Positions 11,607 to 37,884 of a stretch of 38,005 bases of DNA are shown here, piece after piece. Under the pieces are notes generated by a model. The model saw only the letters and a program-made list of their open reading frames with translations. It was not told the DNA's origin and searched no databases. This DNA is from Verrucomicrobiota bacterium (lineage in GTDB: Bacteria; Verrucomicrobiota; Verrucomicrobiia; Limisphaerales; UBA9464). Every line of letters begins with the position of its first letter. Position 1 is the stretch's first letter. The stretch covers positions 1 to 38,005 of the forward strand of contig JAFLEF010000062.1 of NCBI GenBank assembly GCA_017309115.1, read 5' to 3'. Position numbers and translations under genes: made by a program.

Positions 11607-11711
11607 GTAGTACCGGCTTTAGCCGGTGGAGCTGTAGAACAAGCTGGGCGTTTAAGGACTCCATAGGCGTGAGCTCGAGGCGACGGCTCCGCCGCCTGAA
11701 GGCGGGACTCC
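11607..11711. repeat. 105-bp inverted-end element (family I), copy A
   Basis: The left end carries hairpin CCGGC-TTTA-GCCGG and the right end CCGCC-TGAA-GGCGG then GGACTCC. The core has GAACAAGCTGGGC. The left head is degraded (GTAGTACC instead of GGAGTCCC). Both this copy and copy B are preceded by GGCGCGGTCTTCGGTATG, showing that the flank was duplicated with the element. A 14-bp unit (CGAACGGGGAACTC) repeats two to three times directly after it. Confidence 0.85.
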
Positions 11712-11771
11712 GAACGGGGAACTCCGAACGGGGAACTCCGAGCGGGGGGAACCCGGCGCGGTCTTCGGTAT

Positions 11772-11876
11772 GGAGTCCCGGCTTCAGCCGGTGGAGCTGT
11801 AGAACAAGTTGGGTGTTTAGGGACTCCACGGGCGTGAGATCGAGGCGATGGCTCCGCCGCCTGAAGGCGGGACTCC
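11772..11876. repeat. 105-bp inverted-end element (family I), copy B
   Basis: It starts GGAGTCCCGGCTTCAGCCGG and ends with CCGCCTGAAGGCGGGACTCC, which are 18/20 identical as inverted repeats; the two differences are a compensatory pair in the hairpin stem. It is same-oriented as copy A, 165 bp downstream, and exactly the same length. Confidence 0.9.
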
Positions 11877-12004
11877 GAACAAAAAGGCGGGACTCGGATC
11901 GATGGGGAGCGGATTTGCGCTCGTCGGGCGGGGATGCGGGCGGCAGTGTTCGGGCAACCAATTCAGTCGATTTTGCCATTTCACCATCAACCCCTGTTCC
12001 TGCC

Positions 12005-12505
12005 ATGCGTTATGTGATGAAGGAGAAGTTCTGGACGCTGACCAATCAGTTCGACATTCGGGACGATACCGGGAAGGTCGTGTTCCTGGTCAAAGGTCAG
12101 TTCTTCAGTTTGGGCGACAAGTTGTCGTTTCAGGACCCGTCCGGAAACGAACTCCTGTTCATCCGGCAGAAGATGCTTTCGTTGGGACACACGTTTCTGC
12201 TGGAACGAAAGGGTGAGGTCATTGCCCGAGTGTACCGGCATTTGTTCACGCTGATCCGGTATCGGTTCACCGTGGATGTTCCGGGTCCCAATGACCTCGA
12301 GGCGGCCGGAGACTTTCTCAACCACGAGTACACCTTTACCCGGCCTGGCGCCGCTGGGCCGGTGGCGACGGCGAGCAAGCGATGGTTTTCCTGGGTGGAT
12401 ACCTACGGCATCGACATCGCGCCCGGGGAAGATGACGTGATGCTGCTGGCGTGCGCCGTCGTGATCGACCTGGTGATGCATCCTTCCGACGGACGGTTGT
12501 CCTGA
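12005..12505 (+). CDS. LURP-one-related (LOR/tubby-like) protein
   Basis: The product is 166 aa, the normal length for the bacterial LURP-one-related family (Pfam LOR, PF04525). The opening RYVMKEKFWTLTNQFDIRDDTGKVVF and the repeated beta-strand/turn layout (VKGQFFSLGDKLSFQDPSGNELLFIRQK) are characteristic; the fold is a 12-stranded tubby-like barrel around a hydrophobic helix, here near residues 145-158 (DDVMLLACAVVIDLVM). The function of bacterial members is not established; relation to phospholipid scramblases suggests membrane or lipid contact. The reading frame is open far upstream through repeats, but the ATG at 12005 matches the family start. It is convergent with the cupin gene, 39 bp apart. 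Confidence 0.87.
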   Translation: MRYVMKEKFWTLTNQFDIRDDTGKVVFLVKGQFFSLGDKLSFQDPSGNELLFIRQKMLSLGHTFLLERKGEVIARVYRHLFTLIRYRFTVDVPGPNDLEAAGDFLNHEYTFTRPGAAGPVATASKRWFSWVDTYGIDIAPGEDDVMLLACAVVIDLVMHPSDGRLS

Positions 12506-12544
12506 ACCGGACAGCATCAACTGAGCATTTCGACAGACTCAGCC

Positions 12545-13021
12545 CTACTCCTCGCCGTCGTAGTATTCCGTAAACACGGGGCGGAATGTCTTGGCTAAGG
12601 TGGTCATGGCGACTTTGCCGCTGTCCGGATAGTGGCAATCATCGGCGATGGGGTTGTCGGAGATGACCCAGAATTCGAGGGGCTCCGTTCCGGTGTTGGT
12701 CACCGAGTGGGCCTCGCCGGGGGGTGTCAGGAAGGCGTCGCCAGCACGGATCGGGGTGTTGCCTTCGGGAGTCCGAACTTCTCCGGTGCCTTGAGTCACT
12801 AAATAGAATTCCCATTGGGCGGAGTGGCTGTGGAACGGGTAGTTGATGGCACCGGGCGGGACGCGGAATTGGTCCAATTCGAAGGGCCAACCTCCGCCCC
12901 AGGTACCGGTGTCAGGCTTGGAGCCCATCGCCTGGCTGGGACGGCGGAAGCTGCGGGCGAATTTGCCTTTGGGCGAACGTTGCTCGGTCCAAGGCAGGTC
13001 GGGAACGTGGATCTTGGTCAT
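12545..13021 (-). CDS. Cupin-domain protein
   Basis: The product is 158 aa with a single cupin barrel at about 50-130. Metal-binding residues are visible in motif 1, H64 and H66 in PFHSHSAQWEFYLV with E71, and H105 in motif 2 (GDAFLTPPGEAHSVTN). Small single-domain cupins of this type act as isomerases, dioxygenases or sugar-binding proteins; the residues alone do not decide which. The C terminus is acidic (YYDGEE). The gene is divergent from IMP dehydrogenase with 167 bp between them. No substrate can be inferred. Confidence 0.87.
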   Translation of the reverse strand: MTKIHVPDLPWTEQRSPKGKFARSFRRPSQAMGSKPDTGTWGGGWPFELDQFRVPPGAINYPFHSHSAQWEFYLVTQGTGEVRTPEGNTPIRAGDAFLTPPGEAHSVTNTGTEPLEFWVISDNPIADDCHYPDSGKVAMTTLAKTFRPVFTEYYDGEE

Positions 13022-13153
13022 GCGCGGAAATCCTGCGAATTCGGGGCCGGCGCGTCAGGAGAATTCCCGATTTTCCGGCGCAGAATCAGTTCTTTCGAGG
13101 GAACCGCCTCCGGTCTGGGTCGGGACAGCCATCCGGGTGTCGTGGCATTCCCC

Positions 13154-13182
13154 TTGCCAAGGACCGGGTGCTTCCCTGATTT
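13154..13182 (+). promoter_or_regulatory. Possible promoter of the IMP dehydrogenase gene
   Basis: TTGCCA (13154-13159, 5/6 to the -35 consensus) is followed after 17 bp by TGATTT (13177-13182), a poor -10 that nonetheless ends exactly 6 nt before the ATG, as for the 8362 gene. Confidence 0.3.
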
Positions 13183-13188
13183 TCGCTC

Positions 13189-14769
13189 ATGGCAACACCG
13201 GTTGACCCCGCGGAGATCGATTCCGCGTTCTACCAGCCCGCCGACGAGTTTTTCCCGAGTCAGCGCGGCGTGGCTCTCACTTACGACGACGTCACTCTGG
13301 CGACGCTCTATTCGGACGTCCTGCCGCGGGAGACTCAGCTGGACACCACCCTGGCGGAAGGGTTGGAACTGCACGTCCCCATTGTGTCGGCCGACATGGA
13401 CACGGTGACTGAATCCCGGATGGCCATCGCTTTGGCGCAACATGGCGGTCTGGGACTGATCCACTACAACATGACCGAACGCGACCAGCTTTCGGAGGTC
13501 AGCCGGGTCAAGAATCACGTTCACGGGCTGATTCAGGATCCCATCAAGGTTCAGGCGGACCAGGAGATCGGCGAGGTTCTGGCCCTTATTGAGAAGAAGA
13601 AGTTTTCGTTCAGCACCTTTCCGGTCGTGGACTCCGGGAATCGGTTGCTGGGCCTGTTGCCGGGCCACGTGGTGAAGCCGCGCTATGCCAAGCGGAAGGT
13701 GCATGAAGCGCTGACTCCCCGGGCGGAAGTGCGGACCATTCACGAGCGGGAGCTGGCGAGCGATCCCATTGGTCGGGCGGATCGGTTCTTCACGGAGAAT
13801 CCGGGCATTCACAAGCTGTTGGTGGTGGATGATGACGATCGGCTGCGCGGACTGTTCACGATGAGCGACATCGAGCGCATCACCCAGGAACGCAGTGCGC
13901 AGCTGAAGCCAGCTCGGGACAGTCGGTTTCGACTGGTGTGCGGGGCGGCGATTGCCACGAGCCGGAAAGCGGATGGCACGTTGGATCGGGACCGAATCGT
14001 GGCCCACGTGGGAGCCTTGGTGGAACGCGGGCTGGATGTGGTCGCGGTCTCCACCGCCCACGGACACAGCCGCGGCGTAGGAGAAACCGTGCGCCTAGTG
14101 CGCGACGCGTTCCCGCGGTTGCCGATCATTGCCGGCAACGTGACGAGTGCGGCGGGCGTGGACTTCCTCGCGGAAGCGGGCGCCAATGTCATCAAGGTGG
14201 GGCAGGGTCCGGGATCCATTTGCACCACTCGGATTGTGGCGGGGGTGGGTATTCCGCAGTTCACGGCGCTCTATGTGGCGTCTCGCGCGGCCCGGCGGCG
14301 CGGAGTCACGGTTCTCGCTGATGGTGGGATTTCCAAGTCCGGGGACATCGTGAAGGCATTGACCCTGGCGCAGGGTGTGGTGTGCGGCGGACTCTTTGCC
14401 GGATGTCCGGAAGCGCCGGGTCAGATCATTGAGATCAACGGGAAGCTGTATAAGCAGTACCGCGGCATGGGCAGCATGGCGGCGATGAAGGCCGGGTCCG
14501 CAGCGCGCTACGGCCATTCCACTTCGGACACCAGCCGCAAAGTGGCGGCCGAAGGGATTGAGGCGCTCAAGGAAGCGTCGGCTGGATTGGATCAGGTGCT
14601 GTCCCAGTTGGTCGGTGGCTTGCAGTCCGGCCTCGGGTACTTGGGGGCGCAGAATCTGGCTCAGTTGCGCGAGAAGGCCCGGTACATCCGGATCACGACA
14701 GCGGGCTTGCGGGAAGCAGCGCCGCATGACGTCGTGGAAGTGAAGACGACCACGACGTCAGCCAATTGA
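13189..14769 (+). CDS. guaB: IMP dehydrogenase-family protein, divergent
   Basis: The product is 526 aa. The IMPDH/GMPR TIM barrel is split by two CBS domains (about 113-235), the IMPDH layout. The catalytic loop [18 protein letters not shown] holds C345. The flap [15 protein letters not shown] and the R440-Y441 pair are kept, and the C terminus ([32 protein letters not shown]) matches IMPDH. The enzyme oxidises IMP to XMP with NAD in guanine synthesis. Three sites differ from what I recall of the consensus: Ser288 replaces the Asp of the DxxHGHS loop, Gly401 replaces the phosphate-binding Ser of VGSMLAG, and GQGPG replaces GIGPG. So the family is clear but IMP dehydrogenase activity is less sure than usual. 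GMP reductase is unlikely because CBS domains are present. Confidence 0.85.
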
Positions 14770-14788
14770 ACTGGGGGAGTTTTGAACC

Positions 14789-14818
14789 GCAGATTGACGC
14801 AGATTGACGCAGATTGAT
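14789..14818. repeat. 10-bp tandem repeat CGCAGATTGA, three perfect copies
   Basis: Three perfect direct CGCAGATTGA units follow the leader TTTTGAAC in the gap after the IMPDH gene. The 10-bp period is close to one helical turn. Confidence 0.85.
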
Positions 14819-14822
14819 TCCG

Positions 14823-14916
14823 TGGTGGGGCGACGTTCCCCGGAGCCGTGCGTGGGTGGACTGGTGATGCGTCATTCGCCGGGACGTGAACGGCTCGGCG
14901 GAGCCTCGCCCCACCA
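14823..14916. repeat. 94-bp palindromic element with 27-bp inverted ends (family II)
   Basis: The left end 14823-14849 starts TGGTGGGGCGACG and the right end 14890-14916 is its inverted repeat, 23 of 27 positions identical. The right arm itself folds (GGCTC-CGCC-GAGCC). The element fills the gap between the convergent IMPDH and DNA-repair genes. The segment CGTCATTCGCCGGGAC in its centre resembles CGTCACTCGCCGGGAC at 1422-1437. Confidence 0.75.
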
Positions 14917-14930
14917 GGAATTACGCGCGC

Positions 14931-15806
14931 TCAGGCGGCGCGCTGGCGTAGGTCGAGGGCTTGGCGGTTGCCCTTCTTAGCGGGATGGCGCAGGGCGTGG
15001 CGGATGAGCCAGCGGCGTTCGGCGGAGGCTTGCTTCAACCACCGTTCGCACTGTTCGAAGACCAGATCGGGATGGTCCTTGGCGACGTCGCCCAAGTGAT
15101 TGGCGACACTCCGGCGAACGTAGAGGTCAGGATCGTCCTTCAATGCCTCGAGAATGGGCAGCGTGGGTCGGGGATCGCGGATGAACTGGGGAATTCGGGG
15201 AGCCCACGGCAGTCGGGGTCGGGTGCCCTCGGAGCAGAGCCGGCGGACATGCGGATCGGGATCGCGAGTCCACTCCATTAGGCGCGCCAGAGTTCGCTCC
15301 GGCCAGCGAATCAGGAACGGTCGGATACAGAACTCGGCGCTGAAGCGGCGGGTGATTTCGTATTGGGCGGCCAGGGAGGCTTCGAAGGGATCCTCGCCCT
15401 CGTTGTAAGCGGGATCGGTTCCGAATTGGGCGACGAAGCTGACGTGCGGCAGGTAGAAGAAGGGCGCGAGGCCGAGGTCATCGGTGTCCTTCAGCGGCGG
15501 TCCCAGGGAAGTGACCAGGAGTTTCACCGCGGTTTCGTAGCGGGGCGGCAAATGGGAGCGGAGGGCTCGCGCGAGATGGTTGCCGCGCTCCAGGATTCCC
15601 AGCGGAGCGAGACCGTCCAGGGCGGTTCGGGTGAATCCAGGGGAATCGAACGGGGGATGGACGCGTCGAACGTTGTAGGCCAGACACTCCACGGCATCCC
15701 GATCCAGAAGGTCTTTCAGGGTGCTGCCCTTGGCGATAAATCCCGGGGCTTTGGGCAGTCGGGGTCCGGAGTCGGCGGCCTGAGAATTTTTCCGGGAAGC
15801 GGTCAT
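14931..15806 (-). CDS. DNA alkylation repair protein (AlkC/AlkD-like, HEAT-like repeats)
   Basis: The product is 291 aa. The C-terminal half has HEAT-like helical pairs: ARLMEWTRDPDPHVRRLCSEGTRPR, PILEALKDDPDLYVRRSVANHLGDVAKDHPDLV and RWLIRHALRHPAKKG. This arrangement and the ARPFLIRWPERTL-type helix are those of the AlkC branch (COG4335), DNA glycosylases that remove N3- and N7-alkylated purines without base flipping. Residues 1-60 are basic and less conserved. It acts on chromosomal DNA in the cytoplasm. It is convergent with the IMPDH gene and appears to be monocistronic. The start at 15806 is an ATG; the next Met in frame is too far inside. Confidence 0.8.
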   Translation of the reverse strand: MTASRKNSQAADSGPRLPKAPGFIAKGSTLKDLLDRDAVECLAYNVRRVHPPFDSPGFTRTALDGLAPLGILERGNHLARALRSHLPPRYETAVKLLVTSLGPPLKDTDDLGLAPFFYLPHVSFVAQFGTDPAYNEGEDPFEASLAAQYEITRRFSAEFCIRPFLIRWPERTLARLMEWTRDPDPHVRRLCSEGTRPRLPWAPRIPQFIRDPRPTLPILEALKDDPDLYVRRSVANHLGDVAKDHPDLVFEQCERWLKQASAERRWLIRHALRHPAKKGNRQALDLRQRAA

Positions 15807-16030
15807 GACGTCGGGCTAGAGAGTTTCCCGGGTTGGTGCGGGAGGGAAGTTCAACCTCGGGATTTGCGGGCCTCAATTCATCGGGGTTGCCGGGCGTGAC
15901 GGGTTCCTCGTGGGGGAGGTTTTTAACCGCAGATTTAACACTTGAAACTTCCAACTCCTCCACCCCGGCATAGCCTCATCGGCACGATCCCCGTCCATCG
16001 GTGCCATCGTTGGACGGATTCCTGCCGTCC
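15807..16030. other. Divergent intergenic region
   Basis: The gap separates the divergent DNA-repair and secreted-protein genes and should hold both promoters. I could not place a convincing promoter. It contains one copy of the CGCAGATT unit with its usual leader (TTTTTAACCGCAGATTTA, 15919-15938). Confidence 0.5.
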
Positions 16031-17899
16031 ATGAGATCCCGCCATGTCGATGCTGTTGTTCGAGGCCTGCTGGGTTTGCTGACCCTGGCCTCGGCCGAGG
16101 CCGCCTCCATACAGGTGATTCTGGCGACCGACCAGACCCCCGGGGACGCCCAAACCTTCCAGGTCGCCACCGTCAGCGGCGGCATCTGGGATCGGGGAGG
16201 CCGCATCCTCATGTCCGGCCGGTACAAGCCCGGATCACCGGGTGCGATTGATCGCAATGCCACCTGGGTTTCTGATGGGCCGGGCACCACGCGTGAGTTG
16301 TATGCGGACGGTGACAGTGTTCCGTATTTTTCGATGCCCGTGGGCGGACCCGTCATCGCCATCTCTGTGCCGATCATCCAGCCGAGGTTCCGAGGGTACA
16401 TTCCGCCGGCTGACTACTGGGCTTGGCAGAGCGCGGTGGTGACGCGGCTTCCGGAGATTCCGGAGAGCCGAGCATGCTGGGTGGACTGGCTCGAAGGTCC
16501 GCCCGGGCTCCCACCCACGCAGTTCATCATGAACGACCTCGAGGAGCACATCGACGGTGCCGTGCGCTTCCTTCGCCCGTCGATGGAGGGTGCGATCATC
16601 CGCAAGCGCGCTTCGGCGGCCGGGCTGGAATCGGAGGTGACCTTCCGCAGGCCTGATGGCAGCGCGGTGCAGATCTTCGTCAATGGTTCCTACACCGACG
16701 GTGCGACGGGTCGGGGCGGTTCCGTGGTCTGGATCGCGCGTTCCGATCTCGCCCCGGTGGCATCGCAACGGCGCGGAGTGGTTCGGATGATCGCCGCCAG
16801 CGCGGGCATGGGACTGCCGAGCCTTCCCGGTGGTGCCTATTCCTTTCTGCGGGTGATGGGCGTGGATCCTGCCGGCGAGTTGCTGTGGGAAGTGGGCGGG
16901 CCCGAAGGCATCGCTGTGCAGCGCGGGGATCCTGGCAGCTGGAAGTCGGTGCTCGCTCCCGGGATGGAGGCTCCGGCCGTCCGCGGTGGCAGGCCGACGG
17001 CCGCGACCCCGGTGTCGCGATTGTCCACGATCCAGTTGGTCGATCACGGTGCCGGCATCCTGGCCAACGTGCTCTACTCGGAAACCGCCGGTGACCTCGC
17101 CCGTCGCAGCGCTCTGCTGATGCACGATGGCAGTTTCCCCCGGTTGATGGCGTTCACCGAGGAGATCGTCGACGGCACCTCTGCGGGAACCCGGCTCCAG
17201 AATCTGTCGGTGGGAGCCCAGGACGCACCGAATGTCGCGAGCGTCGCCTTCATCGGATCCGTCCGCGGCGGCACCCAGCCCTTCGAAACCCAGGCCCTGC
17301 TCCAAGCCAGCGAGTTCAGTGTCCGGCTTCTAGCCCGCCAATTCGACGCGCTGCCGATCCCCGCCGACGTCGACCGCATCGTGCAGTTCCGACTCCCCGT
17401 GCTTTCCGCTGCGCCCGACGGTCGGGTGGCTTTCGCCGCGGAGGTGGAGTTCATGGACGGAACGCGGCGTGAAATCCTGTACGTTGTCACGCCGGGCCTG
17501 CCCAACCGGTACGAGGTGATGCTGACCTCGGGCGACACCTTTACCGTCCAAACCCCAGACGGCCCCCGGGTGGCAACCGTTCAACGGGTGAACGCGGCCG
17601 TTTGGTGCCCGGGCACCTTTGACAAGCTGCTCGTCAGCGTGGACCTCCAAGTCGCCGGGACCTCCGCTGTTCTTCTCGTCGGACCTCAAGGTGCGACCGA
17701 GGTCCAGCTTGATGCTGCGTTCGTCGGTGATCGGATCCGGCTGCGCTGGCCGCAGATGGCAGAGGGCAGGTTGGAGGTCGCTGGGTCCCTGGATGCGGGC
17801 AGCTGGGTGCCGGTGGAGGTGCCCAGCGTGATCGTCGACGGCCAACGCCAGGTCGACATCTCGACGGAGGGGGTTGCGCGGTTCTTCCGATTCCGGTGA
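16031..17899 (+). CDS. Large secreted protein, function unknown
   Basis: The product is 622 aa. It starts with a signal peptide (about 1-24, GLLGLLTLASAEA), preceded by RSRH. The mature part is Gly/Val/Ser-rich and beta-strand rich with no membrane segment. It has repeats of the form LRVMGVDPAGELLWEVGGPEGI and AYSFLRVMG that resemble beta-propeller or choice-of-anchor exported proteins of Verrucomicrobia, and closes with a small domain ending in VARFFRFR, a tail like that of the LRR protein (AKRWYRVVSADP). No catalytic motif is recognised. Ile codons are mostly ATC, whereas neighbours mix ATT and ATC, so codon use differs. A GTG start at 16001 is possible, but the ATG at 16031 places the signal peptide normally. 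Confidence 0.7.
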   Translation: MRSRHVDAVVRGLLGLLTLASAEAASIQVILATDQTPGDAQTFQVATVSGGIWDRGGRILMSGRYKPGSPGAIDRNATWVSDGPGTTRELYADGDSVPYFSMPVGGPVIAISVPIIQPRFRGYIPPADYWAWQSAVVTRLPEIPESRACWVDWLEGPPGLPPTQFIMNDLEEHIDGAVRFLRPSMEGAIIRKRASAAGLESEVTFRRPDGSAVQIFVNGSYTDGATGRGGSVVWIARSDLAPVASQRRGVVRMIAASAGMGLPSLPGGAYSFLRVMGVDPAGELLWEVGGPEGIAVQRGDPGSWKSVLAPGMEAPAVRGGRPTAATPVSRLSTIQLVDHGAGILANVLYSETAGDLARRSALLMHDGSFPRLMAFTEEIVDGTSAGTRLQNLSVGAQDAPNVASVAFIGSVRGGTQPFETQALLQASEFSVRLLARQFDALPIPADVDRIVQFRLPVLSAAPDGRVAFAAEVEFMDGTRREILYVVTPGLPNRYEVMLTSGDTFTVQTPDGPRVATVQRVNAAVWCPGTFDKLLVSVDLQVAGTSAVLLVGPQGATEVQLDAAFVGDRIRLRWPQMAEGRLEVAGSLDAGSWVPVEVPSVIVDGQRQVDISTEGVARFFRFR

Positions 17900-17996
17900 A
17901 CGCCGCCTGGGTTCCAAATCCGTCTGGACAGGTAAAGGGGGCAGTTTGCCGGGTGTGCATCGGCGTTGAGGCGCGGTTCGTCTGCCTGATTTCGGT

Positions 17997-18734: not shown

Positions 18735-18840
18735 CGCGCTCAGTGGTAGCCCGGCGATCGCGGGGGAGAAATGGAACCAACGGACCAGTGCCGGGAGCGT
18801 CGAATAGCCCGTTGGCGAAGGGCTGCCACCGTCGGTCCGT

Positions 18841-22268: not shown

Positions 22269-22982
22269 TTAATCGCGTTCCAGAGTGAACAGCCGCTTGG
22301 GCGCATCGCGTCGCGACTCCACGTGCTGGTCCGCAAAGGCGGCGTTGGCGCGGAACTTGGACCGCTTGGCGCCCGTGGTGACGCGTTGGGTTTCGGTGCT
22401 GCGTTCGTTGCCGCCGCTGTGGCGGTAGCAGACGTTGGCGCCTCCTTCCTTATCGGCATACAGACAGGCGTCCCAGCCATCGGTGTCGGCGTAGAGGACG
22501 GTATTGACCGGATCCATTAGGCTGCGCGACCCGACCGTTTGGGAGCCGTTGTTGATGTACGCGTTCTGGGCGTAGGCCAGATAGCCCCAGAATCCGCCGG
22601 CACGCAGGGCGGTACCGATTCGTTCCTCGGGTTGGGCTTTCTGAACGCTGGATGGGCAAATGAAAATCCCGCCGCCCGCGACCGTGGTCTTCTTGCCGAG
22701 GTAGGGCTGCAGCTGACGGTACCAGATGGGCGGAATGCTGCCGGCGGGTACGGGCATCGATCCGGGCCAGCCGACCGGATAAACCCGGTGATCGTCATCA
22801 TACAGGCTGGCGGCCAGCACCAGTTGGCGGACATTGCTTTGGCAGACAGCGGCGCGGCTCTTGTCGCGGGCTCGGGCCAGGGCGGGCAGAAGCATTCCGG
22901 CCAGGACCGCAATGATGGCGATGACCACCAGCAGCTCGATCAGAGTGAACGCGCGGGAAATGGAGTTGCGGTGGACCCTCAT
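22269..22982 (-). CDS. Pseudopilin-like protein with prepilin N-terminal methylation domain
   Basis: The product is 237 aa. The prepilin signal [20 protein letters not shown] begins at about residue 10, with Ala before the mature Phe and Glu at +5. ALARARDKSRAAVCQSNVRQLVLAA follows, then a C-terminal domain with YADTDGWDACLYADKEGGANVCYRHSGGNERS and the tail FADQHVESR, in which the Gly of DGHV is replaced by Gln. The H-S-G-G motif ahead of the tail is the typical subtype signature (RHSGGxN...FxDxHV). It is expected to be processed by prepilin peptidase. It is 92 bp upstream of the ADH start on the same strand. The repeat copy at 23048-23152 lies upstream of it. Confidence 0.87.
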   Translation of the reverse strand: MRVHRNSISRAFTLIELLVVIAIIAVLAGMLLPALARARDKSRAAVCQSNVRQLVLAASLYDDDHRVYPVGWPGSMPVPAGSIPPIWYRQLQPYLGKKTTVAGGGIFICPSSVQKAQPEERIGTALRAGGFWGYLAYAQNAYINNGSQTVGSRSLMDPVNTVLYADTDGWDACLYADKEGGANVCYRHSGGNERSTETQRVTTGAKRSKFRANAAFADQHVESRRDAPKRLFTLERD

Positions 22983-23047
22983 AGCTTCAGCAAGGATATC
23001 TCTTGGAGTTGCTCAGAAGAAGTCAACGCTGGGTCACTTCCCCGTTT

Positions 23048-23152
23048 GGAGTCCCGCCTTTAGGCGGCGGAACCTCCGCGTCGACTTTACGCCAAGGAAC
23101 TTCCCTAGCGCCCCACTGGCTCGAACGCTCCGCCGGATAAAGCCGGGACTCC
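23048..23152. repeat. 105-bp inverted-end element (family I), copy F, reverse orientation
   Basis: It begins GGAGTCCCGCCTTTAGGCGG and ends CCGGATAAAGCCGGGACTCC. It is the reverse-oriented, most diverged copy, but is again exactly 105 bp with recognisable core. It lies between the divergent pseudopilin and TPR-thioredoxin genes. Confidence 0.8.
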
Positions 23153-23238
23153 GTACCGCGGCGGCCCAGATCGGTTCGTGAATTTCTGATCTTCCGGGAA
23201 AAACCTTGGCGGGATGTGGAAGAAACATAACGTCAGGC

Positions 23239-30988: not shown

Positions 30989-31193
30989 GTTGCCTGCGGG
31001 AGCGGGAGGGCGGTAGGAACTGCGGTCCCAGCGACAGGCTTGGGGACCGAAGGAGATTCAGGAAGTCGCCTTTAAGGGGGCTCCGTCTCCACCCGCTTTA
31101 CGGCTTTTTCTTCAATCGCCGTTGGCCAACATTCGGCTTCGTTCGCGGCTGGTCAGACAGGAACCGGCCTGGGGGACATTAAGTCACGAAAAA
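30989..31193. other. Convergent intergenic region
   Basis: I see no gene. It holds the tail after the CvpA-like gene and the T-run side (GAAAAA on plus) of the minus-strand terminator that follows. No plus-strand terminator is apparent. Confidence 0.4.
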
Positions 31194-31226
31194 GGGGCCG
31201 ACTGGAGTCCCCGTCCAGTCGGCCCC
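31194..31226 (-). terminator. Strong rho-independent terminator of the prenyl synthase/sigma operon
   Basis: A perfect 13-bp stem (GGGGCCGACTGGA / TCCAGTCGGCCCC) with a 7-nt loop. Read on the minus strand it is followed by TTTTTCGTGACTTA. It lies 18 bp past the stop at 31244. Confidence 0.92.
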
Positions 31227-31243
31227 GTGCGTCTCTATCTCCG

Positions 31244-31795
31244 TTACTTTTGGTCTCGATCGCTAGCAAGAATGAACCCGGGACTGGAAATCGAAGGTGT
31301 ATTGAACAGCCATTTAGGAACCGAATCCGTTTTGGCCGCAGGTGTGGGCGGCAGACTAAACGTCGCCGAAACGGGGGCCGAAACGCCGCTGGAAGGGAGG
31401 AGGCGGTAGTTGGACGGAAGTTCGTTGGAAGCGACGAGGCTTTCCTCCTCGTGAGTTCCGGGGTCCCGCACCGGAAGAGGGAGCGCCGCATAAACCTGAA
31501 CTTCCAAATCTTCGTTAGCCACCGAGTGGGCTACTTGAAACGTGGCCGCTGCTAGAAACGCGACCCCGGCGAACGCTAAGGTGTTGACCGCCCACATGCC
31601 GCGTTGCCACGTCACTTCCTCAAAGAGTCGGCTCCACCACGGACGGGCCGCCTGTTCGCGCTCAGCGGCGATGGCTCTCATAACCCGGCCCCGCAGATAA
31701 TCAGGGAAGCCCGGGGGAGGAGTCTCGTAGCGTTTGAGCGCCAGAAGTTGGGCAATCCGGGGATCGAAGGATGGGTCGTTCTCCATGGGATTCAT
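31244..31795 (-). CDS. Small membrane protein, possible anti-sigma factor
   Basis: The product is 183 aa. One membrane helix lies near 68-90 (GMWAVNTLAFAGVAFLAAATF). The N-terminal cytoplasmic part (residues 1-65) begins MNPMENDPSFDPRIAQLLALKRYETPPPGFPDYLRGRVMRAI, and the C-terminal part is Pro/Ser-rich and probably periplasmic. This orientation, and an ATGA overlap with the ECF sigma gene upstream, are the usual features of an anti-sigma factor. No HxxxCxxC zinc motif is present, so the assignment rests on position and topology. A strong terminator follows. Confidence 0.6.
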   Translation of the reverse strand: MNPMENDPSFDPRIAQLLALKRYETPPPGFPDYLRGRVMRAIAAEREQAARPWWSRLFEEVTWQRGMWAVNTLAFAGVAFLAAATFQVAHSVANEDLEVQVYAALPLPVRDPGTHEEESLVASNELPSNYRLLPSSGVSAPVSATFSLPPTPAAKTDSVPKWLFNTPSISSPGFILASDRDQK

Positions 31796-32421
31796 TTCAG
31801 AAAGTCAGCCAACAGGCCTTGCAACTGCTGTCGTGCGTAAAAGAGGCGGGAACGTACGGTGCCGGGATTGCAGTGCATGATGGTCGCGATCTCGTCGTGC
31901 GGCAGGCCCTGAATGTCATGCAGGGTGACCACCGCCCGATGTTCATCGGACAGCTTGAGCATGGCCTCGTTCAACCTTTTCTGAAGTTCGGCCAAACTGA
32001 CGTCGCGGCGGGGGGTAATTTGCGAAATCAGCTCAACCAGTTCCGGGGTGTGCTCGGCATTGAAATCGAGGTCATCCAGACTGAGATGCGGCGTCCGATT
32101 CCGGCGCTGCTTCAGATGATTGAGGACGTTGTTGTAGGCGATGCGATAGACCCAGGTGTAGAAGCTGGAGTCGCCCTTGAACGATCGAAGCGCCTTCCAG
32201 GCCTTGACGAAGGCCTCCTGAGTCAAGTCGCTGGCGTCCTCGTGATTGGACGTCAGGTGGTAACACAGCCCGTAAATTCGCTGCTGATACCGTCGGACCA
32301 ACTCCTCGTAGCAATCATCATCCCCAGCTTTGGCGCGGGCGACCAAGGTACGGTCATCTGGCCCCTCGGGTGCAGCCGGGACTGCAGCGGGCGAAACTGG
32401 TGGGGTTGGGTTCGACTCCAT
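31792..32421 (-). CDS. ECF-family RNA polymerase sigma factor
   Basis: The product is 209 aa. After a Pro/Ala-rich start, region 2 is at about 40-110: DDCYEELVRRYQQRIYGLCYHL, DASDLTQEAFVKAWKAL and TWVYRIAYNNVLNHLKQRRNR. Region 4 covers about 145-205 with ELQKRLNEAMLKLSDEHRAVVTL and the helix-turn-helix LPHDEIATIMHCNPGTVRSRLFYARQQLQ. It redirects RNA polymerase to stress or envelope genes. It overlaps the downstream candidate anti-sigma gene by ATGA, so the two are translationally coupled, and follows the prenyl synthase gene by 25 bp. The ATG 32421 starts just before the conserved region; a longer open frame upstream overlaps the prenyl synthase. Confidence 0.92.
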   Translation of the reverse strand: MESNPTPPVSPAAVPAAPEGPDDRTLVARAKAGDDDCYEELVRRYQQRIYGLCYHLTSNHEDASDLTQEAFVKAWKALRSFKGDSSFYTWVYRIAYNNVLNHLKQRRNRTPHLSLDDLDFNAEHTPELVELISQITPRRDVSLAELQKRLNEAMLKLSDEHRAVVTLHDIQGLPHDEIATIMHCNPGTVRSRLFYARQQLQGLLADFLK

Positions 32422-32446
32422 GTTCGCCCCGGGAGCAAGTGCTCGC

Positions 32447-33484
32447 TCATCGGGCGAGCGAGGCAGTCTGGCGGGCGATGAAGCGGGTGAAGACATCGAG
32501 CGCATGCCGTTCGGCGCTGGCGGGCAAGGGATCCAAAGCCCGGCGTGCGCGTTGGAGAAGACTCTCGATGACGGCCGAGCTTTCCGCCAGTGCTCCATGC
32601 GACTCGAGGAGCGCTTGAAGTCCCACTAGGTAACTGGGGTTCCACTGATTCAGCCATCCCGTGATCTCCGCGGCATCGCTCGCGGAGGCTCGTTCAAGCA
32701 AAACAATGACTGGCAGCGTCAATTTCCCGGTCGCCAGATCGGTCCCGAGGGATTTCCCGGCCACGGCTTCCTGGCCATACAGGTCCAGGCAATCGTCATA
32801 AATCTGGTAGGCCGTTCCGGCAGCCAAGGCGAACTCTCGGAGTGCCTGGACCTCGGATTTGGTGGCTCCCGCGTGACGAGCCCCCAATTCGGCGGCCACC
32901 GCGAACAGTTCCGCCGTCTTCATTTCCACCATGCGCAGATATTCGGCCCGGGGCAGATCCCAACGGCGTCGACGATTGCTCTGCAAAATCTCGCCGGTGC
33001 AGACTGCGCTGGTGGCCATCGCGATGGAGCGGAAGATATCTTCGGCCGACAGCGTGGCCGCCACCTTCATGGCATGGGCGAACAGGCAATCTCCCAATAA
33101 AACCGCCAAATGATTACCCCAACGAGCGCCGACGGTTGGTCGCGCCCGGCGAACCTGGGCTCCGTCCATAATGTCGTCATGAACGAGGGTCGCCAGATGC
33201 ACCATCTCGACCAAAACAGCAATGGTGACGTGTTCTTCGCGGACTTGGCCAACGGCTCCGGCACAGAGTCCCACGAAGGCAGGACGGAGCTGTTTGCCCC
33301 GGCTATCGAGCGCATATCGAGCATGTTCTGCAATCTCAGGCTCGAACTGATCTACTTGGGCTTCAAGTTTTTGAGAAACCTTGCTCAGGAAGATCTGCGC
33401 CGGGCCGAGGATGGATTCCCAGGACACTTCCGGCGTGGTTGAGGACGCAAGCAGGTCAGGAATTTCTGGAACGGTCACCGGCAT
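32447..33484 (-). CDS. Polyprenyl diphosphate synthase (trans-isoprenyl, long chain)
   Basis: The product is 345 aa. Both aspartate-rich motifs are visible: DDIMD at 103-107 (with HDD) and DDCLD at 230-234, and GKQLRP near 63-68 binds substrate. The enzyme condenses isopentenyl diphosphate onto an allylic primer at the cytoplasmic membrane face. Small residues Ala and Thr stand 5 and 4 positions before the first DDxxD, fitting a long-chain product such as the C35-C50 tail of menaquinone or ubiquinone. The ATG at 33484 is chosen; a TTG 13 codons upstream is in frame. It leads a minus-strand unit with the ECF sigma and its neighbour, and is divergent from the HemX-like gene. Confidence 0.92.
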   Translation of the reverse strand: MPVTVPEIPDLLASSTTPEVSWESILGPAQIFLSKVSQKLEAQVDQFEPEIAEHARYALDSRGKQLRPAFVGLCAGAVGQVREEHVTIAVLVEMVHLATLVHDDIMDGAQVRRARPTVGARWGNHLAVLLGDCLFAHAMKVAATLSAEDIFRSIAMATSAVCTGEILQSNRRRRWDLPRAEYLRMVEMKTAELFAVAAELGARHAGATKSEVQALREFALAAGTAYQIYDDCLDLYGQEAVAGKSLGTDLATGKLTLPVIVLLERASASDAAEITGWLNQWNPSYLVGLQALLESHGALAESSAVIESLLQRARRALDPLPASAERHALDVFTRFIARQTASLAR

Positions 33485-33599
33485 TGGCGTGCGCACAGTA
33501 TGGGCGACCGCACCTAGGGTCAACCGAGCGGAAGGTTGCGGAGCAAGTTTGCCCCATGGACCGCATGGACATCAGGCGCCCGATCCGTAAGCTCGTCGG

Positions 33600-34421
33600 G
33601 TGTTCGGACTGACCGACCGCAATTGGTTCTCGCTCGCCGTAGTCCTTTACGGGATCGGGGCTGTGTACTCCGTGCTGCTGTGGCGGCGCGGATTTCGGCG
33701 AGACGACTGGGTTTTGTACGGATTGCTCGCGGCGGGTGCTGGAGCGCACATGACGGCCATGTTTTTGCGGGGTTTCTCGGTGGACCGGTGTCCGATCAAC
33801 AACTTGTTTGAAGCCACCATGTTCATCTCCTGGACCATGGTGGCGAGTTTGCTGGTCTTGGGAACCTGGCAGCGGTTGCGGTTTTTGGGAGCATTTGCCT
33901 CACCCCTGTTGTTCGCCCTGGGGGTGTTCGCCTTGTTTCCGATGCTTGATGAACGCGGTCCCAAGCCGGCCTTTGTCCATGGCTGGGAAAGTCTGCATGC
34001 CGCCCTCGTCTTGCTGGCCTACGGCGCGTTTGGCCTGAGTGCGCTCGCGGCCCTGATGTACCTCTCCCAGGAGCATCATCTGAAGTTCAACAAACCCCGG
34101 GCCGTCCTGTCGTTGCTGCCGCCCATCCAGCGTTTGGAAAAAGTGACGACGGTTTTGTTGTGGGTGGGCTTTTCCTTGCTTACGGCCGGATTGATGGTGG
34201 GCGCTTGGTGGTTGCAGCAGCAACACGGGTATTTTGTGTCCGGTGATCCCAAAGTGGTCTGGTCCGTCGCGGTTTGGATCGCCTATCTTGGCTTGCTGGT
34301 CTTGCACTGGCGTCCGTTGGCGGGAGGCAAGCAGTTCGCCTACGGCGTTATCGCAACCTTCGCCTTTGTGTTGCTGACCTTTTGGGGCACCAACCTTCCC
34401 TCGGCCATCCATAACCCGTGA
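33600..34421 (+). CDS. HemX/CcsA-like cytochrome c assembly family membrane protein
   Basis: The product is 273 aa with a GTG start. Eight hydrophobic helices are seen, including WFSLAVVLYGIGAVYSVLLW (about 9-28), MFISWTMVASLLVLGTW, LLFALGVFALFPML, LHAALVLLAYGAFGLSALAALMYL and VIATFAFVLLTFWG. The His-bearing loop GWESLHAAL and YLSQEHHLKF match the CcsA/HemX family, whose members move haem or regulate haem synthesis. The TGA stop overlaps the GTG of hemA (34418-34421), so it is coupled to glutamyl-tRNA reductase, the classic hemX-hemA order. A TAAGCT hexamer at 33588-33593 ends 6 nt before the start. Confidence 0.88.
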   Translation: MFGLTDRNWFSLAVVLYGIGAVYSVLLWRRGFRRDDWVLYGLLAAGAGAHMTAMFLRGFSVDRCPINNLFEATMFISWTMVASLLVLGTWQRLRFLGAFASPLLFALGVFALFPMLDERGPKPAFVHGWESLHAALVLLAYGAFGLSALAALMYLSQEHHLKFNKPRAVLSLLPPIQRLEKVTTVLLWVGFSLLTAGLMVGAWWLQQQHGYFVSGDPKVVWSVAVWIAYLGLLVLHWRPLAGGKQFAYGVIATFAFVLLTFWGTNLPSAIHNP

Positions 34422-35476
34422 ATTCGATGAGGTTGCTGGTCCTTGGCTTGAGTCATCATTCAGCCCCGGTGGAACTCCGGGAACAGTTTGCCTACGCCGA
34501 AGCCGATGTGCCGGGGTTCCTGAATCGCCTAAAGGCCGCCGGTTTGGCGCGGGAAGGGGTCTTGTTGTCGACCTGCAATCGAGTCGAGTTGTATGTCGGC
34601 ACGGATCGATCGGGTACGGAAGTCAGTCAGGCGCTGCGAGAGTTTGTTGCTCGGGACCGCGGGGTAACTGGTCCAATGGATCGGGCGTGGTACGTGCATT
34701 CCGATGCCCAGGGAGCGGAACACCTGTTTCGGGTCGCCTGCGGTCTGGAGTCGCTGGTGCTCGGTGAAACCGAAATTCTAGGTCAGTTAAAACGGGCGTA
34801 CGACCTGGCGCTGCAACACGGCTGCACGGGCCGGTTGCTCAATAAACTCTTTCAGGCGGCCTTCAGCACGGCCAAGCGGGTCCGGAGCGAAACCGGAATT
34901 CAACGGGGCAACACCAGTGTGGCTTCCGTGGCCGTGGAACTGGCGGAAAAGATTTTCGATGGTCTTCAGGGACGGGAGGTAATGGTCATCGGTGCGGGGG
35001 ATACCTCCGAAAAGACCGCCCGGGCGCTGCTCAGTCGCGGGGCTCACTCGGTGATTGTGAGCAACCGGTCTTTCGATCGAGCAGCAACCCTGGCTGAGGA
35101 ATTGGGCGGTCGGGCGATCCATTTTGATGATTGGAGCCGGGAGTTTGGCCGACTGGACATCATCATCAGCAGCACCAGCGCCCCACATTATATTTTGGAT
35201 CGTCCCCGCTTGTCCGGGTTGCTGCAGCAGCGCACGTCGCGACCATTGTTGCTGATCGATCTGGCCGTGCCGCGTGACATCGATCCGGAGGTGAAGCTGC
35301 TCAACAATATCTTCCTGGCGAACGTCGATGACCTGCAGGCGATTGCGACCGAGCACGTTCGCGCGCGTCAGGAGGAACGAATCCGGTGCGAACAAATCAT
35401 CCGCGAACGTTCCCTGCGCTGGGCGGGTGAAGTTTCCAGCCACCCCCTGCCGGAACGTCGGCTGGCGTTCGAGTAG
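34418..35476 (+). CDS. hemA: Glutamyl-tRNA reductase, short form
   Basis: The product is 352 aa against about 420-450 for typical enzymes. The catalytic N-terminal domain is intact: GLSHHSAPVELRE, nucleophile C53 in STCNRVELYV and GLESLVLGETEILGQLKRA. The NADPH domain follows (VMVIGAGDTSEKTARALL, IVSNRSFDRAATLAEEL, IDLAVPRDIDPEV). The spinal helix starts (ARQEERIRCEQIIRERS) but the C-terminal dimerisation domain is missing; the chain ends PERRLAFE and hemC begins 23 bp later, so nothing has been lost to a nearby frameshift. The enzyme makes glutamate-1-semialdehyde from Glu-tRNA, the first step of C5 haem synthesis. An ATG at 34427 is an alternative start. Confidence 0.93.
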   Translation: MNSMRLLVLGLSHHSAPVELREQFAYAEADVPGFLNRLKAAGLAREGVLLSTCNRVELYVGTDRSGTEVSQALREFVARDRGVTGPMDRAWYVHSDAQGAEHLFRVACGLESLVLGETEILGQLKRAYDLALQHGCTGRLLNKLFQAAFSTAKRVRSETGIQRGNTSVASVAVELAEKIFDGLQGREVMVIGAGDTSEKTARALLSRGAHSVIVSNRSFDRAATLAEELGGRAIHFDDWSREFGRLDIIISSTSAPHYILDRPRLSGLLQQRTSRPLLLIDLAVPRDIDPEVKLLNNIFLANVDDLQAIATEHVRARQEERIRCEQIIRERSLRWAGEVSSHPLPERRLAFE

Positions 35477-35499
35477 CGTCCGATTTCTGCCGTTTGTTC

Positions 35500-36564
35500 A
35501 TGGATTCCCGTCCCCGTTCCCCGGTTCGTCTGGCCACTCGTGGCTCAGCCCTCGCTTTGGCTCAATCTCGACGCATTCGCGACGCTTTGGCAGCGTGCTT
35601 CCCAGAGCGGGAGTTTGAGCTGGTGATTATCAAGACCACCGGCGACCGCCTACCCACCGCGAGCCTCGCCAATGCCGAGTCCGGTCTACCTCGAGGATTG
35701 TTCACCAAGGAGCTCGAGACGGCGTTGCTGGAGCGGGAAGCTGATTTGGCGGTACATAGCCTGAAGGATTTGCCGACGGAATTGCCCGCCGGACTCGTTT
35801 TGGCTTCGATCCCGCCGCGGGAGGATGTCCGCGAGGTCTTGCTTTATCGCAGTGAGAGTTTGCGGAAGGCGGTGCCGGAAGGGGCGGCGGATTGGTCGCC
35901 CGGCCGACGGGAACCGTGGTTCGGTCAGCCCGGGCGGCACCTAAAGCATCTGCCCCAGCGATCCGTCCTCGCCACCAGCAGTACCCGTCGGGCGGCGGCG
36001 GTTCGGTGTGCCAGGCCGGACCTGGAGGTGGTTCCGATTCGGGGCAATGTCGGAACCCGGTTGCGCAAACTGCGGGAAGGCTGGGATCTGGATGCCACAC
36101 TTCTCGCTGCGGCGGGCCTGGTGCGCTTGAACTGGGATATCAGTCCCCAGGGCATTCTGCGGGTGGATCCCCGGTTGCCCGCCACGGTTCGAGCCACGGT
36201 GGAACCTCCGGCGGAGGGGCTTCAGGCCACCCTAATCGAGCCGGAACAGTTTTTGCCGGCGGTGGGGCAGGGAGCACTGGGCTTGGAAACCCGATCCGAC
36301 GACGAGGAGACCCGGAACCTGTGTCTTGCGCTGAATCATTTCAACACGCAGGCCGCCGTAACTGCCGAACGGTCCTTGCTGGCGGCCATGGGTGGCGGCT
36401 GTCAGGCCCCCGTCGCCGCGTGGGGTCGGGTGCTGGGACATCAGGTAGTGCTGTCCGCCGAATGGTATCGGGACGGGAAGCGGTTTGCGGGCGAGGCACG
36501 GCGGTCGGTCCGGGAGGCGGAACGGTTGGGACAGGAACTGGCGGCCCAGTTGTTGCAGGCCTGA
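35500..36564 (+). CDS. hemC: Hydroxymethylbilane synthase (porphobilinogen deaminase) with two insertions
   Basis: The product is 354 aa against about 310 usually. The fold is clear: RLATRGSALALAQS, the catalytic Asp in EADLAVHSLKDLP (D82), TSSTRRAA, RGNVGTRLRKL, and the dipyrromethane-cofactor Cys at 301 in GGGCQAPVA. It polymerises four porphobilinogen molecules to hydroxymethylbilane in the cytoplasm. Two extra segments are visible: about 126-152 (GAADWSPGRREPW to HLKHLPQ), between PEG and VLATSS, and about 212-247 before FLPAVGQGALG. It follows hemA by 23 bp; ATG 35500 is used rather than the in-frame TTG at 35494. Confidence 0.93.
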   Translation: MDSRPRSPVRLATRGSALALAQSRRIRDALAACFPEREFELVIIKTTGDRLPTASLANAESGLPRGLFTKELETALLEREADLAVHSLKDLPTELPAGLVLASIPPREDVREVLLYRSESLRKAVPEGAADWSPGRREPWFGQPGRHLKHLPQRSVLATSSTRRAAAVRCARPDLEVVPIRGNVGTRLRKLREGWDLDATLLAAAGLVRLNWDISPQGILRVDPRLPATVRATVEPPAEGLQATLIEPEQFLPAVGQGALGLETRSDDEETRNLCLALNHFNTQAAVTAERSLLAAMGGGCQAPVAAWGRVLGHQVVLSAEWYRDGKRFAGEARRSVREAERLGQELAAQLLQA

Positions 36565-36593
36565 TCCTGATTCCCGATCCGCATTCCCCTTTT

Positions 36594-36618
36594 GCGGTTT
36601 CCGCTTCCCGCTTAGGCT
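36594..36618. repeat. Degenerate CCGCTTM heptamer stretch, -10-like TAGGCT, before nadA
   Basis: GCGGTTT, CCGCTTC, CCGCTTA and GGCTTTG follow in 7-bp register. TAGGCT (36613-36618) is a possible -10 element and ends 6 nt before the nadA ATG, as at three other genes here. A convincing -35 is not visible. Confidence 0.5.
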
Positions 36619-36624
36619 TTGCCC

Positions 36625-37608
36625 ATGTTCAACGCGCCGGAGGTGCAGCCGTTCGTGACGGCCCGACCCGCTCCTGAAATTGTCGATTCGTTGTCCCGGG
36701 AAATCCTGGAGCTCAAACGCCGTCATCGGGCGGTGATTCTGGCGCACAATTATCAGGTCTCGGAGATTCAGGAGATTGCCGACTACGTCGGGGACTCCCT
36801 CGGCCTGGCCCAACAAGCGGCCCAGACGTCTGCGGAAGTGATCGTGTTCTGCGGGGTCCACTTCATGGCCGAGACCGCCAAGATCCTGAATCCGCACAAG
36901 ATTGTGGTGCTGCCGGACCGGGACGCCGGCTGTTCCTTGGAAGAGAGTTGTCCGGCGGACCGGCTTGCGGCTCTGCAGAAGACCAATCCGAACTTCTACA
37001 CGATTGCCTACATCAACTGCAGCGCCGCCGTGAAAGCGCTTAGTGATGTGATTTGCACCAGCGGCAATGCCCGCAAGATCGTCGAGCACGCGCCGGCCGA
37101 TCGGGATTTGCTGTTTGTTCCGGACGAAAACCTGGGCGGCTGGGTGATGGAGCAGACTGGTCGGCCGATGACCCTGTGGAAGGGCAACTGCTACGTGCAC
37201 GTGGAGTGGACTCATGCGGCCATTCAGCGCATCCGGCGGGAACATCCCGGGGCGCCGATTGTGGCGCATCCGGAGTGCACCAAAGCGGTACGCATGTTGG
37301 CCGATGAAGTGTGTTCCACCGAGAAGATGGTGACCTACTGCCGGAAGAATCCGGCCCCGGCGCTCATCATCGCGACGGAAGCCGGCATGCTGCATCGGTT
37401 GCGGCGGGAATGTCCGGACAAGATTTTCATTCCCGCGCCCACCGAGCGGTGCGCCTGCAACGAATGTCGGTTCATGAAGATGAACACCCTGGAGAAGCTC
37501 CGGGATTGCCTGGCCAACTTGTCGCCGCAGGTCGAGTTGCCGGCCGACATCCTGGAGCGCGCGCGTCGGCCGATTGAGCGCATGCTCGAGATTTCGGCCC
37601 TGCCTTAA
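36625..37608 (+). CDS. nadA: Quinolinate synthase A
   Basis: The product is 327 aa. Family blocks are in order: ILAHNYQVSEIQEIADYVGDS near the start, IVFCGVHFMAETAKIL, CSLEESCPADRL, YINCSAAVKALSDVICTS, a mid-chain HPECTKAV (Cys218) and the C-terminal cluster TERCACNECRFMKMNT (Cys 276, 278 and 281). The cysteines in CSLEESC, HPEC and CACNEC supply the [4Fe-4S] cluster ligands. The enzyme condenses iminoaspartate with dihydroxyacetone phosphate to form quinolinate for NAD synthesis. It lies 60 bp after hemC and probably has its own promoter. ATG 36625 is used; a TTG two codons upstream is in frame. Two 105-bp repeat elements and a partial copy follow. Confidence 0.95.
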   Translation: MFNAPEVQPFVTARPAPEIVDSLSREILELKRRHRAVILAHNYQVSEIQEIADYVGDSLGLAQQAAQTSAEVIVFCGVHFMAETAKILNPHKIVVLPDRDAGCSLEESCPADRLAALQKTNPNFYTIAYINCSAAVKALSDVICTSGNARKIVEHAPADRDLLFVPDENLGGWVMEQTGRPMTLWKGNCYVHVEWTHAAIQRIRREHPGAPIVAHPECTKAVRMLADEVCSTEKMVTYCRKNPAPALIIATEAGMLHRLRRECPDKIFIPAPTERCACNECRFMKMNTLEKLRDCLANLSPQVELPADILERARRPIERMLEISALP

Positions 37609-37621
37609 AGCCTCTCGGTAC

Positions 37622-37726
37622 GGAGTCCCGGCTTCAGCCGGTGCCGTTCCAGAAAAAGCTGGGCTGTATGGAACTCCTGACGCGTCGATGGCGGGTGAAG
37701 GCTCCACCGCCTGAAGGCGGGACTCC
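37622..37726. repeat. 105-bp inverted-end element (family I), copy C
   Basis: It starts GGAGTCCCGGCTTCAGCCGG and ends CCGCCTGAAGGCGGGACTCC, core GAAAAAGCTGGGCTG. It is tandem with copy D, 122 bp apart; the 17-bp spacer contains CTTCGAAAAGG. Confidence 0.9.
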
Positions 37727-37743
37727 GAACTTCGAAAAGGTAC

Positions 37744-37848
37744 GGAGTCCCGGCTTCAGCCGGTGCCATTCCAGAAAAAGCTGGGCTGTATGGAACTCCT
37801 CCCGCGTCGCTGGCGGGTGAAGGCTCCGCCGCCTGAAGGCGGGACTCC
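37744..37848. repeat. 105-bp inverted-end element (family I), copy D
   Basis: This near-identical neighbour of copy C is again 105 bp. A few point differences lie in the core (CGTTCC becomes CATTCC, TGACGCG becomes TCCCGCG, CTCCACC becomes CTCCGCC), showing the pair is not a recent assembly duplicate. Confidence 0.9.
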
Positions 37849-37865
37849 GAACTTCGAAAAGGCAC

Positions 37866-37884
37866 GGAGTCCCGGCTTTAGCCC
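37866..37884. repeat. Partial family I element, copy E
   Basis: A third left end (GGAGTCCCGGCTTTAGCCC) follows in exact 122-bp register with copies C and D, then the sequence leaves the element. Confidence 0.75.

Follow-up and report, generated by a model that had tools for sequence, protein, structure and literature searches.

We analysed a 38,005-nt window from a Verrucomicrobiota bacterium (UBA9464; GenBank assembly GCA_017309115.1, contig JAFLEF010000062.1, positions 1 to 38,005), which is part of the contig that we call C71 in a 7.5-Mb genome, and found that the repeats of about 105 bp within it are very probably REPINs, i.e., non-coding, non-autonomous doublets of two inverted repetitive extragenic palindromic (REP) sequences, here of the group 3 type, mobilised in trans by a REP-associated tyrosine transposase (RAYT, also TnpA_REP) encoded on another contig, C97. 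The original prediction, made from the sequence of the window, had placed five copies at 11607, 11772, 23048 (reverse), 37622 and 37744 and had left the choice between a REPIN and a short miniature inverted-repeat transposable element (MITE). All five positions were confirmed, each copy being 105 bp long, and the REPIN alternative is supported by the inverted tagged REPs, by dozens of copies, by their arrays and by the RAYT gene beside one such array. Tagged hairpins of the same architecture also lie beside RAYT homologues in many other genomes.

Scanning the genome with the half-site GGAGTCCCGSCTTYAGSCGG at no more than one mismatch returned 109 occurrences, 55 on one strand and 54 on the other, and none for the reversed control, so the abundance of the half-site is not due to chance. 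The genome harbors at least 45 full copies in addition to single ends, dispersed as well as in arrays; the element is therefore found beyond the window and is not confined to it. The figure of 45, a lower bound, covers the retrieved loci and the window and leaves out C30:98986, C34:75821 and C54:60382.

The genome has five matches to PF01797 (Y1_Tnp), and the one on C97, of 206 aa, is the RAYT. A three-copy REPIN array starts about 20 bp downstream of its gene, and no REPIN copies were found in the 3.5 kb examined on the upstream side. The C97 RAYT scored 25.9 and 24.7 bits against PF01797 in two scans (cut-off 23). A profile built from 18 RAYT homologues matches PDB entry 4er8, 'TnpArep', at 2e-9; a phmmer search of PDB with the single C97 protein returned nothing at 0.001. 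In a 60-row alignment of RAYTs, the two histidines of the HUH motif are conserved at H91 (60/60) and H93 (59/60), and so is Y151 (59/60). From the family motif, we take Y151 of the C97 RAYT to be the catalytic tyrosine. The RAYT that the original prediction had suggested looking for is thus present, with the HUH motif and the tyrosine, beside a REPIN array. Its statement that no transposase lies in the window holds for this family, as none of the five PF01797 matches is on the contig of the window, other transposase types having had no systematic search. A further weak RAYT-like match is located on C38.

For the comparison with other genomes, we used the best 80 of 89 named loci encoding a homologue of the C97 RAYT; by record title, 39 of these 80 loci, including all of the 16 best, belong to Verrucomicrobiota, and the rest include Planctomycetota, Acidobacteriota, KSB1 and others. 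Around the RAYT genes we searched for the anchor GKAGT-N6-TTYA, in which no stem is demanded. This anchor has 329 matches in the 148 kb within 1 kb of a RAYT gene, compared with 25 in the 244 kb more than 2 kb away, and since 22 of these 25 have at least four stem pairs, the far matches are mostly outlying REPs. Among the near matches, 292/329 form all five stem pairs and 318/329 at least four, and the mean number of stem pairs is 4.82, compared with 3.39 when the 3' arms are re-dealt. Because pairing so clearly exceeds the re-dealt value and perfect stems appear unasked for in 292 matches, the covariation of the stems between species is strong. At 61/80 loci, the anchor occurs with at least four of five stem pairs no more than 1 kb from the RAYT gene. 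These results bear on the second alternative of the original prediction, a short MITE, which we take here as one belonging to a DDE insertion sequence with terminal inverted repeats starting GGAGTCCC. Inverted terminal repeats, a non-coding core and dispersed copies would all suit such an element, but the ends of our repeats are the same tagged hairpins that occur at RAYT loci in several phyla, and their flanks show a conserved box with no target duplication visible by eye, so that we regard a MITE as highly improbable; an insertion sequence with matching ends was sought among Y1 transposases only.

The presence of the element also follows that of the RAYT. The half-site GKAGTNCCGNCTTYAGNCGG was found in 36 of 97 genomes, our own included. 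Taking an E-value under 1e-40 as a strong RAYT match, which nine genomes including our own have, at least 19 half-sites occur in 8/9 strong-RAYT genomes versus 4/88 others (Fisher 3e-8); with our own genome excluded and a threshold of 10 half-sites, the counts are 7/8 and 7/88. The repeats might instead be kept by the host as RNA or DNA structures, such as terminators, mRNA stabilisers, or gyrase or nucleoid sites, and not be mobile. Their stable folds and the two copies directly after nadA would be in keeping with this, and REPs elsewhere have been credited with such roles in passages of several articles (PMC3733652, PMC8266576, PMC6006769). However, the patchy distribution among the 97 genomes, the tandem arrays and the coupling to RAYT presence argue against it, as does the anchor search, which in the loci examined from four congeners detected no REP hairpin 3' of nadA. 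A purely structural role is therefore very unlikely in our view, although host-structure and mobile roles could coexist.

The features of the window, with the parts of one copy (copy 4), are as follows.

11603..11715, plus strand: REPIN copy 1, core 11607-11711 (105 bp) with 4-nt outer boxes; its left REP is degenerate (GTAGTACC)
11768..11880, plus strand: REPIN copy 2, core 11772-11876; in tandem with copy 1
23044..23156, minus strand: REPIN copy 3, core 23048-23152; with a prepilin-like gene (N_methyl) on one side and an AhpC/TSA-domain gene on the other
37618..37730, plus strand: REPIN copy 4, core 37622-37726; directly downstream of nadA
37622..37625, plus strand: guide-type tetranucleotide GGAG of the left REP of copy 4, at the position equivalent to GTAG of REPMb as given in part of PMC8266576
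37628..37641, plus strand: left hairpin of copy 4, CCGGC TTCA GCCGG
37670..37677, no strand: central dyad GGAACTCC of copy 4, at the copy midpoint 37674
37707..37720, minus strand: right hairpin of copy 4, read outward-in CCGCC TTCA GGCGG
37723..37726, minus strand: guide-type tetranucleotide GGAG of the right REP of copy 4
37740..37852, plus strand: REPIN copy 5, core 37744-37848; in tandem with copy 4 at a spacing of 122 bp
37862..37885, plus strand: truncated sixth copy, with the outer box and left REP only (left end 37866-37885)

Each end of the element is a 20-nt REP that consists of the tag GGAG, 2 nt, a 5-bp stem and a TTYA loop, and the two ends are inverted. Among the 45 copies, the tag is GGAG at 43 left and 42 right ends (GTAG occurs once at each end), and the stem is intact at 40 left and 40 right ends. 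The description in the original prediction needs a few corrections within the window: the start GGAGTCCC does not apply to the copy at 11607, which begins GTAGTACC; the left-type stem of the copy at 23048 is broken (TTATCCGG); and the conserved core block GAAMAAGCTGGGC is exact in three of the five copies (11607, 37622 and 37744). A scan of the window against Rfam at gathering thresholds gave no match.

The two ends differ at one place in the stem. Pair 4 reads G-C in the left end but C-G in the right in 42/45 copies; no copy is left-left or right-right, and the remaining three have a damaged end. Nucleotides 10 and 17 do not pair with the opposite end in any of the 45 copies (dyad agreement 0.00 at both). 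The compensatory G-C to C-G exchange noted earlier is thus real, but it is one fixed difference between the left and right ends. Similarly, the claim of covarying stems stands for the comparison across species and between the two ends, but not for that between copies in the genome: among 17 representative copies, a two-sided change was seen in 0/16 stem pairs and in 0/21 predicted pairs, and covariation between copies within the genome was accordingly rejected.

In other genomes, a dimer of two perfect stems was found at 38 of the 80 RAYT loci: 12 of these carry homodimers, and at the other 26 the dimers are mostly heterodimers. Within the heterodimeric group, stem position 4 is unlike between the two ends at 21 loci, position 5 at eight, position 3 at four, position 1 at one and position 2 at none; the stem differences between loci, in contrast, fall mostly at positions 2 and 3. 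Nine of the 26 heterodimeric loci have identical combinations, and there are 14 distinct combinations, ten of which differ at position 4. Since related loci share combinations, the stem-4 events are fewer than the 21 loci.

The original prediction had taken the fixed length of 105 bp as a property of the element, which is true of the five copies in the window but not of the genome, where the 45 full copies range from 103 to 120 bp (103 bp in eight, 104 bp in 15, 105 bp in 14 and 111-120 bp in eight). The spacer is nevertheless nearly constant, 37/45 copies being 103-105 bp long with a core of variable sequence: the ends are 94-95% identical among the copies and the core 53%, with two core subfamilies. 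In 14 other genomes, 70 dimers were found in a list admitting GGAG tags and lengths of 76-106 only, of which 44 are 102-104 bp, 16 are 99-101 bp and ten are 76-87 bp long. A helical-turn explanation of the 104 bp was dropped because REPIN length shows no periodicity signal (R(10.5)=0.146 versus a median of 0.154 over periods, with about 1-2 lengths per RAYT locus).

Directly outside the 105 bp lies a further conserved box. On the left it fits GYWY in 41/45 copies and is GTAC in 24/45; on the right it fits GYWY, read outward-in, in 43/45 and is GAAC on the plus reading in 37/45. As this 4-nt box extends both ends, the conserved unit is about 113 bp, not 105 bp; beyond the boxes there is scant conservation except between array neighbours. 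A similar box precedes GKAG at RAYT loci of other genomes, with an information content at its four positions of 1.08, 0.75, 0.50 and 0.60 bits in 35 GGAG loci and of 1.19, 0.70, 1.40 and 0.67 bits in 29 GTAG loci. At the 80 ends of 40 dimers from ten relatives, its letters are G in 78, T in 69, A in 48 or T in 29, and C in 46 or T in 30. Ten of the 14 other genomes with dimers supplied these 40 (G007 7/7, G014 5/6, G028 5/5, G040 1/2, G043 4/13, G045 6/6, G049 4/4, G055 1/2, G061 1/1 and G086 6/17); G009, G021, G058 and G074, whose dimers are 76-87 bp, supplied none.

The middle of the element is marked by a short dyad, GGA-N0-3-TCC, which is no more than 5 bp away from the exact midpoint in 26/45 of our copies (mean 0.56 and maximum 3 in shuffled cores) and, by the same measure, in 15/40 dimers of the relatives, in 6/10 genomes (mean 0.51 and maximum 3 in shuffled cores); none was seen in the 13 dimers of G028, G040, G061 and G086. 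The shuffles permute single core letters and ignore kinship, and the copies are kin rather than independent. As a full palindrome, the core gave a weak signal in our own copies (0.373 versus 0.346 shuffled, maximum 0.366) and in the relatives (0.403 versus 0.348, maximum 0.366), and the idea was set aside.

The tag itself varies among relatives, the RAYT-locus motifs comprising 190 GGAG and 139 GTAG. On a tree of 60 RAYTs, GGAG and GTAG require 12 changes, at least seven of which are forced by well-supported branches, and the clustering of tags on this tree exceeds that in all 500 shuffles. Looking for RAYT residues that track the tag, we found among the 15 best columns not one that changes in every one of the six sister contrasts; no single residue explaining tag choice was found.

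A likely course of events can be outlined on the basis of these features. In a single-stranded region, each REP can fold its own hairpin, giving a clover form. Through its HUH-tyrosine centre, the RAYT would recognise the tag together with the TTYA loop and cut the strand at a dinucleotide close to the REP. The doublet would be copied, or moved, in one piece, and local tandem duplication would give rise to arrays. The cleavage and mobilisation steps are modelled on the biochemistry of TnpA_REP from E. coli, Stenotrophomonas and Marinomonas. The difference at stem pair 4 would leave the local hairpins perfect and give the long hairpin between left and right ends two mismatches, which, we hypothesize, favours the form that the RAYT can bind. 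In our fold model with DNA parameters, the long-hairpin advantage of the natural left-right dimer in 23 copies with intact ends is about 7 kcal/mol below that of left-left or right-right dimers, and the local hairpins are equally stable in all three. By this single stem-pair difference, the element may have distinct left and right ends. It is conceivable, though we hold it with some doubt, that group-3-type REPINs are polar in general, with stem pair 4, the neighbour of the loop-side pair, marking left and right, the effect being unequal treatment of the ends by the RAYT and/or avoidance by the doublet of a long hairpin that the RAYT cannot bind, and with the midpoint dyad and the GYWY box as further working parts of a machine of about 104 bp. 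A heterodimer does not seem to be necessary, however, as the listed 102-104-bp dimers of G014, G040, G043, G045 and G049 have mostly same-stem ends.

Several observations weigh against the REPIN reading. Copy length varies and the stems of our own genome do not covary, as described above; the tag is GGAG rather than the canonical GTAG; and no excision, cleavage or insertion was observed in this sequence analysis. The fold model still gives the long hairpin a higher stability than the clover form, so the left-right difference would act as a bias only. No such hairpin was found within 1 kb at 19/80 RAYT loci, some of which have short flanks, or at seven loci of weaker RAYT homologues (L163-L169). 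G021 has a strong RAYT match yet only 2 half-sites, and conversely G004, G028, G045 and G049 carry 26-85 half-sites with no strong match to a C97-type RAYT; the partner of the latter four was possibly lost, unassembled or different, and since the assemblies are incomplete these four cases are not decisive. The C97 RAYT scores 71.1 bits (E 8.9e-20) against NCBIfam NF047646 (REP_Tyr_transpos) and does not reach the equivalog cut-off of 80, which we treat as a limit of the model and not as a defining RAYT feature. Finally, four congeners offered no clean empty site, synteny being broken or the neighbours not known. The element next to the gene adjoining the 23048 copy was not found in the two congeners examined there (L137 and L140). 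The REPIN reading survives the length variation and the absent covariation within the genome, given the strong cross-species covariation and the copies beyond the window.

A second transposase of the genome might also be involved, since a long Y1 transposase (356 aa) on C50 is bracketed by copies at C50:4575 and C50:6224 and all four copies there are 103 bp long and share one core type, as if it mobilised the second core subfamily. Yet 14 homologous loci in relatives (L143, L150-L162) have no REP hairpins, the homologues on C22 and C33 (L016, L017) have none in the 3.5 kb examined, and the long C-terminal part resembles that of TnpA_REP subclasses reported without REPs in part of PMC6006769. 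We consider this role of the C50 transposase unlikely, and in view of the 14 REP-less homologues we set it aside as a second partner and took the bracketing to be incidental. The long Y1 type (about 350 aa) has 11-21 matches per genome in G007, G015, G021 and G062, and the one locus examined in each of G007, G021 and G062 has no REPs, a pattern that fits a multi-copy insertion sequence better than a single-copy RAYT.

REPINs with a RAYT partner are a known kind of system, to which the present repeats add members in a little-studied clade; heterodimers, fixed spacers and arrays, too, have been described before. We compared the element with published systems on the basis of parts of the respective articles. 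In the group 3 (subclass 2.5) REPtron Mb of Marinomonas sp. MWYL1, the REP likewise consists of a tetranucleotide, 2 nt, a perfect 5-bp stem and a TTTA-type loop, and the tag of subclass 2.5 REPs lies 1-2 nt from a short stem (PMC6006769). According to the sections of PMC8266576 on REPMb, the loop requires T12, T13 and A15 and leaves N14 free, which matches our TTYA loop; the tetranucleotide guides the cleavage site; and mutation of stem position 4 lowered cleavage, whereas that of positions 2 and 3 did not. Here we assume that the stem is numbered from the tag side in that work, as in ours. The present element differs from REPtron Mb in its GGAG tag, its phylum, its being known from sequence alone, and its ends, which form a fixed heterodimer of about 104 bp with a midpoint dyad. 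The REPINs of Pseudomonas fluorescens SBW25 (PMC3116915, in part) share with it the inverted REP doublet with conserved ends, the poorly conserved spacer of set length that can form a hairpin, compensatory changes, tandem arrays and a RAYT in the genome, though the set lengths differ; hairpin and 'clover' forms were already proposed there. The SBW25 GI doublet is described as symmetrical, 71 bp separating the first residue of one 16-mer from that of the other, and a fixed left/right stem difference is not described in the portion of that article used here. The GTAG-tagged REP families and dimers of PMC3733652 (likewise in part) include Verrucomicrobia (O. terrae), head-head dimers, heterodimers of different stems and conserved spacers. 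The preference for heterodimers was left there without an obvious explanation, avoidance of hairpin cleavage being offered as an idea. In contrast to those dimers, our tag is mostly GGAG, which has no occurrence in the main text of that article (word-start search, figures excluded), and the stem-4 bias, the outer box and the midpoint dyad are not described in the parts consulted. Among the papers listed in searches on REPIN end asymmetry, on RAYT groups, and on RAYTs and REPINs in Verrucomicrobia, in Planctomycetes and in Opitutus terrae, none describes this element in its title or in the opening of its abstract.

How REPINs move and why REP heterodimers are so frequent are unsolved questions, and the relatives offer a natural experiment in the form of many RAYT loci of the same layout with stem-4 differences, homodimeric controls and at least seven tag switches, by which end recognition becomes testable with short oligonucleotides. 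The end polarity at stem 4, the midpoint dyad and the outer box are worth a test at the bench.

The two arrays of the window seem to have formed locally. Positions 11582-11715 and 11747-11880 are a 134-nt repeat, 90% alike, compared with 66% to the pair at 37.6 kb, and adjacent copies have flanks in common and are closer to each other than to those of the other array, which fits tandem duplication after insertion. In the congener G004, a three-copy tandem array with a period of 100 (L145:2577-2854) has unlike ends and belongs to another GTAG REP family; it sits upstream of nadA and was therefore dropped as a candidate for the same nadA site.

The last 127 bases of the window (37879-38005) recur on C89 (1-127), C101 and C7 at 98-100% identity, and C71 may end at an assembly repeat. 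On the minus strand at 22869-22958, the start of the prepilin-like gene (N_methyl motif) matches dozens of places in the genome and its congeners. The genome also has a second REPIN-like family with GTAG tags, to which no partner RAYT was assigned, at L043:375-651 (G000:C48:62574-62850) and at L034 and L042; at C48 it comprises four copies of 68-69 bp at a spacing of 85-86 bp, and its ends are unlike, with a CCGCC stem on one side and a CGGGA stem on the other.

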